Part shown: positions 3,975 to 8,497 of the stretch, in pieces
Position numbering within the stretch: the first letter of the stretch is position 1
Layout of the letters: the number at the start of each line of letters is the position of its first letter
Virus record (IMG/VR): IMGVR_UViG_3300027749_000319
Coordinates: 1-33,417 of that record
DNA length: 33,417 bases
Strand: one strand, 5' to 3'
Origin: a virus
Translations under genes and position numbers: made by a program
Notes under the pieces: model-generated
What the model was told of the DNA's origin: nothing
What the model saw: only the letters and a program-made list of their open reading frames with translations
Database searches by the model: none

Positions 3975-3990
3975 GTCCGACACGTCGGAC
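3975..3990. repeat. GTCCGA-N4-TCGGAC palindrome, copy 2
   Basis: GTCCGACACGTCGGAC, located 15 bases before the lipoprotein ATG and two bases from the stop codon of the upstream gene. It has the same TTTGT flank on one side and AGTTAATTAAT on the other as copy 1. Confidence 0.9.
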
Positions 3991-4352: not shown

Positions 4353-4427
4353 AGTGTCGCCTCGAGACTCGAACTCGATCGTCCGACGTGTCGGACAAAT
4401 CCCTGATGACGACTGAGCACACAACAC
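4353..4427 (-). other. tRNA-like sequence, not a complete tRNA
   Basis: On the minus strand, 4378-4362 forms a perfect 5-bp stem closed by the loop TTCGAGT, the classic T-arm signature. The following bases (4360-4354, GCGACAC) can pair with GTGTTGT at 4427-4421 as a 7-bp acceptor with two G-U pairs. Just inside is GCTCAG, as in many D-arms. However, the D-stem does not close properly, and the anticodon position holds a 6-bp GTCCGA palindrome with a 4-base loop, so no anticodon arm exists. It may be a decayed tRNA, a tRNA-like structure or chance. Confidence 0.3.
4381..4396. repeat. GTCCGA-N4-TCGGAC palindrome, copy 3
   Basis: GTCCGACGTGTCGGAC. The TTTGT-type flank lies on the opposite side from the other copies, so this one is in reverse orientation. 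It sits inside the tRNA-like stretch, where an anticodon arm would be expected, and is 47 bases from the ATG of the membrane peptide. Confidence 0.85.
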
Positions 4428-4512: not shown

Positions 4513-5097
4513 TTATGCATTCATCATCTTTTTCAATTCTTCAATAAGTAGTGTTAACACTTCTTTTTTGGCTGTACCTTTGATACTTATTTTATTATCC
4601 TTATTAACAGATATTTTTAAGTTTTCAACTTTTGGCTGTTTTTCGTTTGCGTCCGTTTCTTCGTTTGTGTCCGTTTCTTCGTTTGTGTCCGATATGTCGG
4701 ACGGACTCGCAAATTTGACTAAGTTTTTTAGCGACAATGTATCTTTGCTTTGTGCTTTATATTCATTAATTACATCAATATGAATATTACCACATTGAAC
4801 CAATAAATACATGTAACTTTTAGACATTTGCAAAATTTCGTTTGCATACATATCGGCATTCATTTTAAATTCGTGCAATTTTAGAATATCTTTGCAAATA
4901 CTACTTTTGTACCACTCAAAGCTATCTTTAACCTCAAAGGCTAAATTTATGCTAACATCAAATTGCTTTGTTGCTAAGCTATTAAATTGCTTTGTTAGTG
5001 CTTTAATAGTGTTTACTTTCGTACCCCTTACGAAATCTACATCATTTAATAATGTAGTAAAATTGCTGTTTGTTGTTGTTGTTTGTGTTTGTGTCAT
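4513..5097 (-). CDS. Unknown protein (194 aa) with acidic tandem repeat linker
   Basis: The first gene of the leftward arm. From the ATG at 5097-5095 it reads MTQTQTTTTNSNF; an earlier in-frame ATG inside palindrome copy 5 would add MSDKKPKK. Residues 10-130 look helical, with conserved-looking hydrophobics (FEWYKSSICKDILKLHEF, YMYLLVQCGNIHIDVINEYK). A hydrophilic linker with TNEETD repeats follows, then a short C-terminal domain with strands and a helix (VENLKISVNKDNKISIKG, VLTLLIEELKKMMNA). A strong terminator follows directly, so it may be expressed as its own transcript. The two-domain layout with a flexible acidic linker is seen in some single-stranded DNA-binding or regulatory proteins, but no signature supports either. 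Function unknown. Confidence 0.7.
   Translation of the reverse strand: MTQTQTTTTNSNFTTLLNDVDFVRGTKVNTIKALTKQFNSLATKQFDVSINLAFEVKDSFEWYKSSICKDILKLHEFKMNADMYANEILQMSKSYMYLLVQCGNIHIDVINEYKAQSKDTLSLKNLVKFASPSDISDTNEETDTNEETDANEKQPKVENLKISVNKDNKISIKGTAKKEVLTLLIEELKKMMNA
4643..4696 (-). repeat. Three tandem 18-bp repeats encoding TNEETD-like units
   Basis: Three consecutive copies of an 18-base unit (TCGTTTGTGTCCGTTTCT on the plus strand; the first has one change, and the last diverges into palindrome copy 4). They encode an acidic hexapeptide repeat in the C-terminal third of the protein. Confidence 0.85.
4687..4702. repeat. GTCCGA-N4-TCGGAC palindrome, copy 4 (inside a gene)
   Basis: GTCCGATATGTCGGAC, the same core as copy 1. 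It lies within the coding sequence of the 4513-5097 gene, where it is read as Ser-Asp-Ile-Ser-Asp next to a TNEETD tandem repeat. Confidence 0.85.
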
Positions 5098-5112: not shown

Positions 5113-5128
5113 GTCCGACATGTCGGAC
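5113..5128. repeat. GTCCGA-N4-TCGGAC palindrome, copy 5
   Basis: GTCCGACATGTCGGAC, 15 bases before the preferred ATG of the 4513-5097 gene. The spacing matches copies 1 and 2. An ATG inside the palindrome is in frame with the gene and would add eight residues. Confidence 0.9.
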
Positions 5129-6307: not shown

Positions 6308-6324
6308 ACTGCACATGTGCAGTA
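6307..6324. promoter_or_regulatory. Perfect 18-bp palindrome, candidate operator of groEL
   Basis: TACTGCACATGTGCAGTA is a perfect 18-bp inverted repeat that ends two bases before the -33 box of the groEL promoter. Position and symmetry suit a dimeric regulator; the regulator is unknown. Confidence 0.65.
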
Positions 6325-6325
6325 G

Positions 6326-6357
6326 TTTGGTTTGAATTGATAAAACCCTTATCTTTG
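6326..6357 (+). promoter_or_regulatory. Bacteroidota-type promoter of groEL
   Basis: TTTG at 6326-6329, a 20-base spacer and TATCTTTG at 6350-6357 match the Bacteroidota housekeeping promoter TTTG-N19-21-TAnnTTTG. The ATG of groEL lies 27 bases further on. This also argues for a Bacteroidota host RNA polymerase. Confidence 0.75.
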
Positions 6358-6383: not shown

Positions 6384-8000
6384 ATGGACTTTACAAACAA
6401 CACGGCATACATGCCAAAGGATCTACAGTTTGGTCAACAAGGTAGACAGAAGTTAATCAATGGTGTTATGAAGATGGCACGTGCAGTAAAGAGCACATTA
6501 GGTCCAAATGGTAATACTGTTCTGATTGAATCTCCCCAACACACACAAGGAATTACGGTAACTAAGGATGGTGTAACTGTTGCAAAAGCAGTTGACTTAA
6601 TTGATCCTATTGAGAACCTTGCAGTTAAGATGATGAAGGAAGCGGCGGAGCGTACAGCTACGAGTGCAGGTGATGGAACGACTACGGCAATTGTCCTTAC
6701 GGAGAAGTTAGTGCTTGGTGGTCTTGAGTATATTGATGAGACGCATAACAGGACGGAGGTGTTGAGACACCTATTGGACATAAGCAATTACGTGGTGGAG
6801 AACTTGAAAACTAAAGCGAAGGAAGTCACCAACGAAATGTTGTTAGATGTTGCCAGCATATCCGCAAATAATGACAAGGAGATAGGACGCATTATCTCAG
6901 AGGTGTATAATGACGTGGGTAAGAATGGTATCGTTACGGTTGAGAAAAGTCAGAGTGCTGAGACATATGCTGAGACAACTAAGGGATTGAAGTTTGACAG
7001 GGGATATTTAAGTCCTTTGTTTATAACTGACCAAAAGAAAGACGAGTGTGTGTTTGAGGACGTGATGATTATGGTTGCAGATATGGAGATAGCAAACATC
7101 TTGCAGTTAGAGAATGTGCTTAAGCCAATTATTAGTGAGGGTAAAAAGTTATTGATAATATCTCCGTGCAATGCGAATGTTGTGAATACATTGGCTGCGA
7201 ATGTTATGAAGGGGAACTTAAAGGTGTGTGCTGTTCCTCCTCCGGGATTTGGATATAAGCAACATGAGTTGATGCAGGACATTGCACTTAGTGTAGGTGC
7301 TACATACTTCAGCGAGAAGACAGGCGATGACTTGAGCATTATAAACTATGCTGATCTTGGACACGCTGCTAGAGTGATTGTAAGCAAGGACAAGACGGTT
7401 ATATTGAAATCTGATGCAAAGATCAAGCAAGACCTAATTGACGAAAGGGTTAAGCAGCTATGGGACGCTAACACATCTTCTACTAAGAAAGCAGACAAAG
7501 ACTTTTTATTGGAGCGTATTGCTTCATTAACAGGTGGAGTAGGTGTTATCTTTGTGGGTGGACAAACAGACCTTGAGCAAAAAGAATTATATGATAGAGT
7601 TGACGATGCAGTATGTGCAGTTCGTTCGGCATTAGAGGAAGGTATCCTTCCGGGTGCAGGGAAGGCGTTAGCCGAAATTCAGTTGCCTGAGAATAAGTCC
7701 GATAGTAAAGAAGAACAGGTGGCATTGAAAATAATGGTTGACGCCCTCCAAGCTCCTTTGTCACAAATATTAGAAAATGCGGGACTAAAAGCAACCGACA
7801 TTTATAGCGGTAGTGAGGAGTTGGGTTATGGATATAACCTTAAGACAGGACAGAAGGGTGACTTGATTAAGATGGGTGTTATTGATCCATTGAAGGTTAC
7901 GAGGTCTGCACTTCAGAATGCGGTGAGTGTAGCTACAACAATTTTATCTACTAATGCAATTATAACTTTAGCAAGAACATATGGGGCAGACTCTAAGTAA
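6384..8000 (+). CDS. groEL: Phage-encoded group I chaperonin GroEL
   Basis: This subunit would form a ring that folds proteins in an ATP-driven cycle with a GroES cap. At 538 aa it is close to bacterial GroEL. Core motifs are intact: STLGPNG (37-43), TKDGVTVAK (60-68), the nucleotide loop GDGTTT (96-101), and in the second equatorial half VDDAVCAVRSALEEGILPGAG, matching the region with the catalytic Asp. The apical domain has the usual start (GYLSPLFITD) and PPPGFGYKQHELMQDIA. The C-terminus ends ARTYGADSK without the Gly-Met tail common in bacterial GroEL. It has its own promoter and overlaps the next gene by 20 bases. It probably folds abundant virion proteins; whether it can work with host GroES is unknown. 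Confidence 0.97.
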   Translation: MDFTNNTAYMPKDLQFGQQGRQKLINGVMKMARAVKSTLGPNGNTVLIESPQHTQGITVTKDGVTVAKAVDLIDPIENLAVKMMKEAAERTATSAGDGTTTAIVLTEKLVLGGLEYIDETHNRTEVLRHLLDISNYVVENLKTKAKEVTNEMLLDVASISANNDKEIGRIISEVYNDVGKNGIVTVEKSQSAETYAETTKGLKFDRGYLSPLFITDQKKDECVFEDVMIMVADMEIANILQLENVLKPIISEGKKLLIISPCNANVVNTLAANVMKGNLKVCAVPPPGFGYKQHELMQDIALSVGATYFSEKTGDDLSIINYADLGHAARVIVSKDKTVILKSDAKIKQDLIDERVKQLWDANTSSTKKADKDFLLERIASLTGGVGVIFVGGQTDLEQKELYDRVDDAVCAVRSALEEGILPGAGKALAEIQLPENKSDSKEEQVALKIMVDALQAPLSQILENAGLKATDIYSGSEELGYGYNLKTGQKGDLIKMGVIDPLKVTRSALQNAVSVATTILSTNAIITLARTYGADSK

Positions 8001-8235
8001 AATAATAGAGGCTTATCCTGAGGATGAGTTTCTAACAATAGATGGATTCAGCGATGCTGTGATTGGAGTATGTTTAGATTCAAGAAGATTAATCTATTCA
8101 GTAAGCAAGTGTATTGACATCTTGGTTTACGATGATAAGATGATTTTTGAAGATGCTGTTGACTACTTTGAAAATACACTACGCAATTCTTTTGATGGTG
8201 ACGATTCACCTATATGGGCAAACATTGAATTTTAA
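7981..8235 (+). CDS. Small conserved phage protein between groEL and groES (84 aa)
   Basis: It starts with an ATG inside the last codons of groEL (20-base overlap), in another frame. The sequence MGQTLSKIIEAYPEDEFLTI has a helical start, then strand-rich DAVIGVCLDSRRLIYSVSKC, then an acidic helix (EDAVDYFENTLRNSF) and an end WANIEF. I associate the pattern (DGFDDAIIG, YSV.KCI, EDA.-YFE-N) with small proteins found alone in several phage groups; this is recall only. It has no catalytic motif. Lying between groEL and groES, it may be expressed with them, but a role in folding is not established. Confidence 0.75.
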   Translation: MGQTLSKIIEAYPEDEFLTIDGFSDAVIGVCLDSRRLIYSVSKCIDILVYDDKMIFEDAVDYFENTLRNSFDGDDSPIWANIEF

Positions 8236-8239
8236 TTAT

Positions 8240-8497
8240 ATGAAACCAATCGGTAAATACATTATTGTTAAAAACATTGACGAAGAGATTAAGACTAAGT
8301 CAGGACTTATACTATCGGGTGACGATACTAATCAGTTGAGATACAAGAAAGGTCTTGTAGTTGAGCCGGGTACTGACGTATCTGTTATTGAGAAGGATAG
8401 TGAGATATACTATGACAAAGGTCATAGCTTCACTATGCTAATCAATGATGAGCAGTATACGATTATTCGTGAGTCTGACGTCGTTGTTGTTTTATAG
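8240..8497 (+). CDS. groES: GroES-like co-chaperonin
   Basis: This would cap the GroEL ring. From the ATG at 8240 it is 85 aa, slightly shorter than bacterial GroES (about 95). It begins MKPIGKYIIVKNIDEE, as the first strand of Cpn10 does, followed by KTKSGLILSGDDTN, which matches the GroEL-binding mobile loop with its hydrophobic triplet (LIL in place of IVL). Then come KGLVVEPG (strand after the loop) and YTIIRESDVVVVL, equivalent to the end of GroES that normally reads like LIMRESDILAV. An earlier in-frame start at 8147 would overlap the preceding gene and add no GroES sequence. The gene follows groEL, the reverse of the common bacterial order, and its end overlaps a convergent gene by 35 bases. 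Confidence 0.9.
   Translation: MKPIGKYIIVKNIDEEIKTKSGLILSGDDTNQLRYKKGLVVEPGTDVSVIEKDSEIYYDKGHSFTMLINDEQYTIIRESDVVVVL

Follow-up and report, generated by a model that had tools for sequence, protein, structure and literature searches.

The window analysed here, that is the whole stretch of 33,417 nucleotides, covers positions 1 to 33,417 of the IMG/VR record IMGVR_UViG_3300027749_000319, a 33-kb viral record that is probably a fragment. Its plus strand carries a groEL gene without GGM tail (6384-8000; 538 aa; assigned by Pfam, PHROG and clade comparison), a gene for an 84-aa accessory protein (7981-8235; PHROG 13182) with a 20-base overlap with the end of groEL, and a groES gene (8240-8497, stop codon included; 85 aa; assigned by Pfam, PHROG, relatives and a structural model). 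The first-pass annotation had described these as a complete chaperonin cassette, and all three genes are real, the start of the 84-aa open reading frame overlapping the groEL 3' end. For groES we chose the ATG at 8240 and not the mechanical TTG start at 8147, because its relatives share length and N-terminus (nearly all 83-87 aa with an MKPIGK-type start).

A Bacteroidetes-type promoter-like element (TTG...TATCTTTG; 6327-6357, plus strand) precedes groEL. Such elements were found within 250 bp upstream of groEL in 37/82 relatives, compared to 87/1780 random pieces. Just 5' of this element lies a perfect 16-bp palindrome, ACTGCACATGTGCAGT (6308-6323), the sole exact match within the window and an uncertain candidate for an operator upstream of groEL. 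Five near-identical palindromes of another type, GTCCGACATGTCGGAC, are found in the leftward gene block (2416-2431, 3975-3990, 4381-4396, 4687-4702 and 5113-5128), where 0.02 would be expected by chance; they are candidate operator sites of the minus-strand genes.

Profile searches revealed that the window also encodes a terminase, a portal protein, virion structural proteins and an endolysin-like peptidase. The host of the virus is a Bacteroidota-type bacterium. A tblastn search with the large terminase subunit (TerL) matched 87 phage records, namely phages of Flavobacterium, Cellulophaga (including Calle), Tenacibaculum and Maribacter as well as ctfjg026, whose terminase is 80% identical. 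By these matches the phage appears closer to Elemovirus and Callevirus than to Crassvirales. Its earlier description as crAss-like is not supported, since the TerL matches are Elemovirus-type Bacteroidota phages and ctfjg026, and since Pervagoviridae, the family of Calle, has no placement under Crassvirales in the taxonomy.

The groEL product matched Pfam Cpn60_TCP1 (E=1.3e-58) and, over its full length, PHROG 5725 'chaperonin groEL' (E=1e-135). The prediction of a full-length GroEL with intact ATP-binding motifs was borne out: the Cpn60 domain is complete and the ATP-site residues are kept. Residues D52, D87, D398, T89-T91 and D495 are present in all 32 clade GroELs compared, substitutions in the ATP site are minor (e.g. 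G415A), and ATP-site positions show a mean of 0.55 changes among 78 viral GroELs. The absence of a Gly-Met tail was likewise confirmed in the window and across the clade, with GGM-like tails in 0/82 viral sequences versus 25/30 from Bacteroidota. Canonical bacterial GroEL is defined here by the NCBI equivalog TIGR02348 with its curated cut-off of 582 bits, a score exceeded in 39 of the 41 Bacteroidota genomes drawn; the window GroEL scored below it (464 bits). The protein thus has the features of a group I chaperonin, with a full Cpn60 domain, ATP/catalytic residues and a GroES-type lid encoded alongside, and departs from canonical bacterial GroEL in its TIGR02348 score, its missing GGM tail and its otherwise conserved contacts at 105/109/452/461/463/464.

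The short GroES suggested by the first-pass annotation is also genuine, as its 85 aa matched Pfam Cpn10 (E=5.8e-11) and PHROG 3188 (E=6.3e-13). The structure predicted for the single chain reached a pLDDT of 92 and aligned with the GroES of 4pko over 82 residues (Z 10.7, rmsd 2.8). The mobile loop SGLILSG is present and keeps its hydrophobic triple LIL. The mobile loop of viral GroES is longer by two residues than the bacterial one, and the roof segment is shorter than in most bacterial GroES. We considered the deletion in the roof loop as a sign of a bigger chamber and dropped this idea; no claim is made from the short roof loop because several Bacteroidota GroES are likewise shortened.

The gene order is reversed relative to bacteria, in agreement with what had been noticed in the window: all 84 viral loci have groES behind groEL, on the same strand, whereas in bacteria groES comes first in each of the 31 loci that yielded both genes. 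A full pair in a crAss-like-looking phage had been called unusual, which overstates the case. A search of 50,697 phage records gave GroEL-like hits in 255, a few of them bacterial contigs; a 2017 study described 36 genomes of marine Bacteroidetes phages with GroEL (PMC5332604); and GroEL/GroES pairs are already annotated in the Bacteroidota phages immuto, Calle and elemo and in ctfjg026. Carrying such a pair is as such not new. In IMG/VR, 403 stretches were confirmed to encode relatives of the window GroEL; as these were collected by similarity to the window, the clade represents its own neighbourhood and not a sample of all phage GroELs. In the genome collection this GroEL type was found only in four short MAG contigs, which we read as misbinned phage DNA. 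The Aliivibrio MAG Ust_30 (G035) contains eight GroEL matches, none above the GroEL cut-off, at least two of which group with the viral clade; this bin seems to be rich in phage contigs.

Residues that hold the two rings of GroEL together have relaxed in this clade. We selected 355 sites with at most three changes in Bacteroidota and counted changes by parsimony in 78 viral GroELs; these share ancestry, an effect that parsimony counts reduce and do not remove. The mean was 4.6 changes per site, compared to 25 for K105, 21 for A109, 23 for R452, 18 for E461, 30 for S463 and 17 for V464. None of 20,000 random six-site sets was as variable as these six inter-ring sites, in a test that ignores the spatial closeness of interface residues. 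The excess variability also holds against equatorial-domain sites alone when measured as entropy, and the contact patches 104-111 and 445-469 rank near the top in variability among sites that are conserved otherwise. The alignment in the inter-ring region is gapless between the anchors APL.QI..N.G and TTTA.VL...GL. The engineered single-ring mutant SR1 carries R452E/E461A/S463A/V464A (PMC5653362), so that R452, E461, S463 and V464 are exactly the SR1 positions. V464 is replaced by D, E or N in 72/78 viral GroELs, and the window protein has S452, K461, T463, D464 and E109. As a plain count of changed conserved sites gave a weak inter-ring signal (P=0.10, three sites passing the strict filter), the single-ring argument rests on within-clade variability and the substitution count. 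From this loss of constraint on the ring-ring contacts we infer that the window GroEL may work as a single seven-membered ring.

Alternatively, the GroEL and GroES of the phage could be a cognate pair that is still double-ringed, with the rings meeting through a different interface. The canonical contacts would then be free to vary, having lost their role. Phage EL, whose double ring has in-register contacts, provides a precedent, and in the window K105E together with E434K could keep one salt bridge. However, a working interface should be conserved somewhere, and both canonical patches are among the most variable; moreover, most members have an acidic residue or proline in place of V464 and A109, and these would be expected to repel across the two-fold axis. 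We regard a double ring of this kind as unlikely.

A different pattern was found on the apical face, where GroES docks. In GroEL, L234, L237 and V264 touch the GroES mobile (IVL) loop (PMC3514286). All 30 Bacteroidota GroELs have L234, L237, V264 and E238, whereas the 78 viral proteins have E at 234 (76/78), L at 237 (77/78), A at 264 (78/78) and K at 238 (76/78). Changed sites are no more frequent on the apical face than in the background (P=0.21); the informative point is solely which new residues became fixed. Docking residues that changed and were then frozen are the pattern expected of a new, dedicated interface. We therefore predict a private interface between this GroEL and its lid, and host GroES probably fits the changed apical surface poorly.

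These residues also bear on whether the phage proteins pair with host partners, phage GroES with host GroEL or phage GroEL with host GroES, in which case the cassette would serve as a dose booster. T4-type lids do replace host GroES, as with gp31 of T4, and the window GroES keeps LIL in its mobile loop. Against this stand the replaced and frozen GroEL docking residues (L234E, V264A, E238K) and the finding that groEL and groES are always kept together, which leave pairing with host partners quite improbable.

The distance between groEL and groES ranges from -4 to 2616 bp with a median of about 283, and is below 30 bp in 14/84 loci. This slot contains at least ten unrelated gene families across loci, among them Tad2-like (PF11195, E=1.8e-24), RyR, class-II tRNA-synthetase-like and PD-(D/E)XK proteins, a crAss001_48-related protein and a pyrophosphatase-like family; by our reading it also holds a putative HNH-like and a putative two-transmembrane protein, both unscored. 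The unrelated families between the two genes point to a slot where accessory genes come and go and the chaperonin genes stay. Tad2-like (anti-Thoeris) slot proteins were seen at four loci (L015, L017, L023 and L048; one representative was scored against PF11195), possibly a small anti-defence site in these phages. Three slots (L073, L076 and L077) contain a class-II tRNA-synthetase-like protein of 281-283 aa (PHROG 29758). In three contigs a small slot protein is fused in frame to the GroES N-terminus (159 aa; L060, 7592-8071; L066, 1839-2318; L068, 7100-7579). The fused part looks two-transmembrane in all three, and the fusion would represent a membrane-anchored lid or else start-site ambiguity.

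The 84-aa protein matched PHROG 13182 (E=1.8e-11), its residues 3-82 aligning with positions 72-152 of the 166 in the profile. Its predicted fold (pLDDT 83) gave no Foldseek match better than E 1 against the PDB, with a best VIA-align Z of 2.5, and matched essentially only uncharacterised viral proteins in BFVD. Its family is the commonest slot occupant, with 36 copies in 35/83 loci. At one locus (L079, 2507-3075) two members stand in tandem in one slot. The first-pass annotation left open whether the middle gene is a partner of the chaperonin or a passenger, and the evidence favours the passenger. A genuine partner, either a third subunit or a substrate adaptor, would accord with the overlap with groEL, with the family being the commonest slot gene and with its restriction to the slot in these phages (36/36 copies). 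But fewer than half of the relatives have the gene, its presence changed about 15 times by gain or loss on the GroEL tree (15 changes among 74 sequences), and unrelated genes can stand in its place. The wider family comprises at least 480 confirmed stretches in phages; 70 of 80 loci examined in the viral collection have no groEL nearby, and in Bacillus phages the relatives adjoin an XRE-type regulator with no chaperonin gene annotated nearby. Among 33 records the family occurs at most once per record and is present in 14. L070 and L072 encode a fusion of the domain with a zinc-ribbon-like domain, and in L034 the ribbon is a separate neighbour, which points to a partner other than GroEL. The patchy distribution, the frequent gains and losses and the many family members away from groEL weaken the idea of a chaperonin partner to the point where we consider it highly improbable; the observations favour an accessory passenger, carried in a cargo slot and foreign to the chaperonin itself. 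From the company that it keeps one may guess at an accessory or counter-defence role.

In a tree of 80 sequences the window GroEL groups with viral proteins only (SH-aLRT 99). A long branch divides this clade from the 30 GroELs of Bacteroidota, to which the window protein is 37.5-40.1% identical, and places it outside these hosts; the deep position of the clade rests in part on long branches. The phylogeny suggested at the outset as a check for simple host capture thus argues against a recent one. Phages do capture host GroEL, as those of Bacteroides phage DAC16 and of a 735-kb phage nest within Bacteroidota in the same tree, yet recent capture of a host groE operon is ruled out here by the tree and, given the low identity, the separate viral clade, the reversed order and the missing tail, has a negligible probability. 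GroEL with its intact ATP site and GroES form an old viral unit, found together in 84/84 relatives.

We propose that the window encodes an old viral, cognate GroEL/GroES pair with its own promoter, which works as one ring capped by a private lid and folds phage proteins, and with the 84-aa gene as a passenger (probability about 0.6). The two proteins would be mutually adapted and made from their own promoter, with virion proteins as the most likely clients. GroEL would act as a single seven-membered ring, and the lid would dock via the altered apical face (L234E, V264A and E238K). A weaker, private contact may let GroES leave a single ring that has no second ring to expel it, which would explain lid release.

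A more far-reaching reading can be put forward only tentatively, at somewhat less than even odds. It holds that a widespread clade of Bacteroidota phages has evolved an obligate single-ring GroEL with lid, that E234/K238/A264 form a code orthogonal to host GroES and allow the lid to leave without a second ring, and that exchangeable accessory and counter-defence genes settle at the groEL-groES junction. How the lid is released from a natural single-ring chaperonin has long been asked, mostly with mitochondrial Hsp60 and engineered GroEL as the objects of study. If our reading is correct, many natural single-ring GroEL sequences with their GroES would become available, i.e. dozens of variants to compare; they might provide cells with an orthogonal folding chamber, and the reason why phages carry chaperonins could be tested directly. 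The slot is a place to seek new phage accessory genes, as Tad2-like genes are already there. Besides this cargo slot, the relaxed inter-ring interface in combination with a frozen new GroES-docking surface is of most interest; we found no earlier report of the slot or of a single-ring prediction in the open-access literature.

The closest known system is that of ctfjg026 (MW202828, Manatee Spring), which shares the groEL-groES order and the same replaced docking residues and has 61% identical GroEL and 59% identical GroES besides the related terminase; unlike in the window, only 4 bp separate its groEL from groES, leaving the slot empty. Elemovirus (Flavobacterium phage vB_FspP_elemo) resembles the window in gene order, short GroES, lack of a GGM tail and a related terminase, but its GroEL is only 37% identical and keeps L234, its docking residues differ and its slot is empty. 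Callevirus (Cellulophaga phage Calle) and Immutovirus are also Bacteroidota phages with their own GroEL plus GroES; however, groES comes first as in bacteria and GroEL is 37-40% identical. Among further phage-encoded GroEL relatives, OBP gp246 and AR9 gp228 are reported to be single rings and EL gp146 to separate into rings, none needing a co-chaperonin. A linked GroES is in contrast always present in the clade described here, and the AR9 protein is about 25% identical over part of its length. The OBP and AR9 single rings work without co-chaperonin, so that combining a single phage ring with GroES would be novel, which makes the prediction less certain. Mitochondrial Hsp60/Hsp10 is of the single-ring type with a specific, weakly binding lid (PMC3514286), and the window system is predicted to work alike, although the mitochondrial proteins belong to another lineage and use other docking residues. 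Finally, T4 gp31 and RB49 CocO are phage lids of the GroES fold, and the window GroES model aligns with gp31 at Z 8.2; T4-type phages encode the lid alone, and T4 uses host GroEL, whereas the window encodes both.
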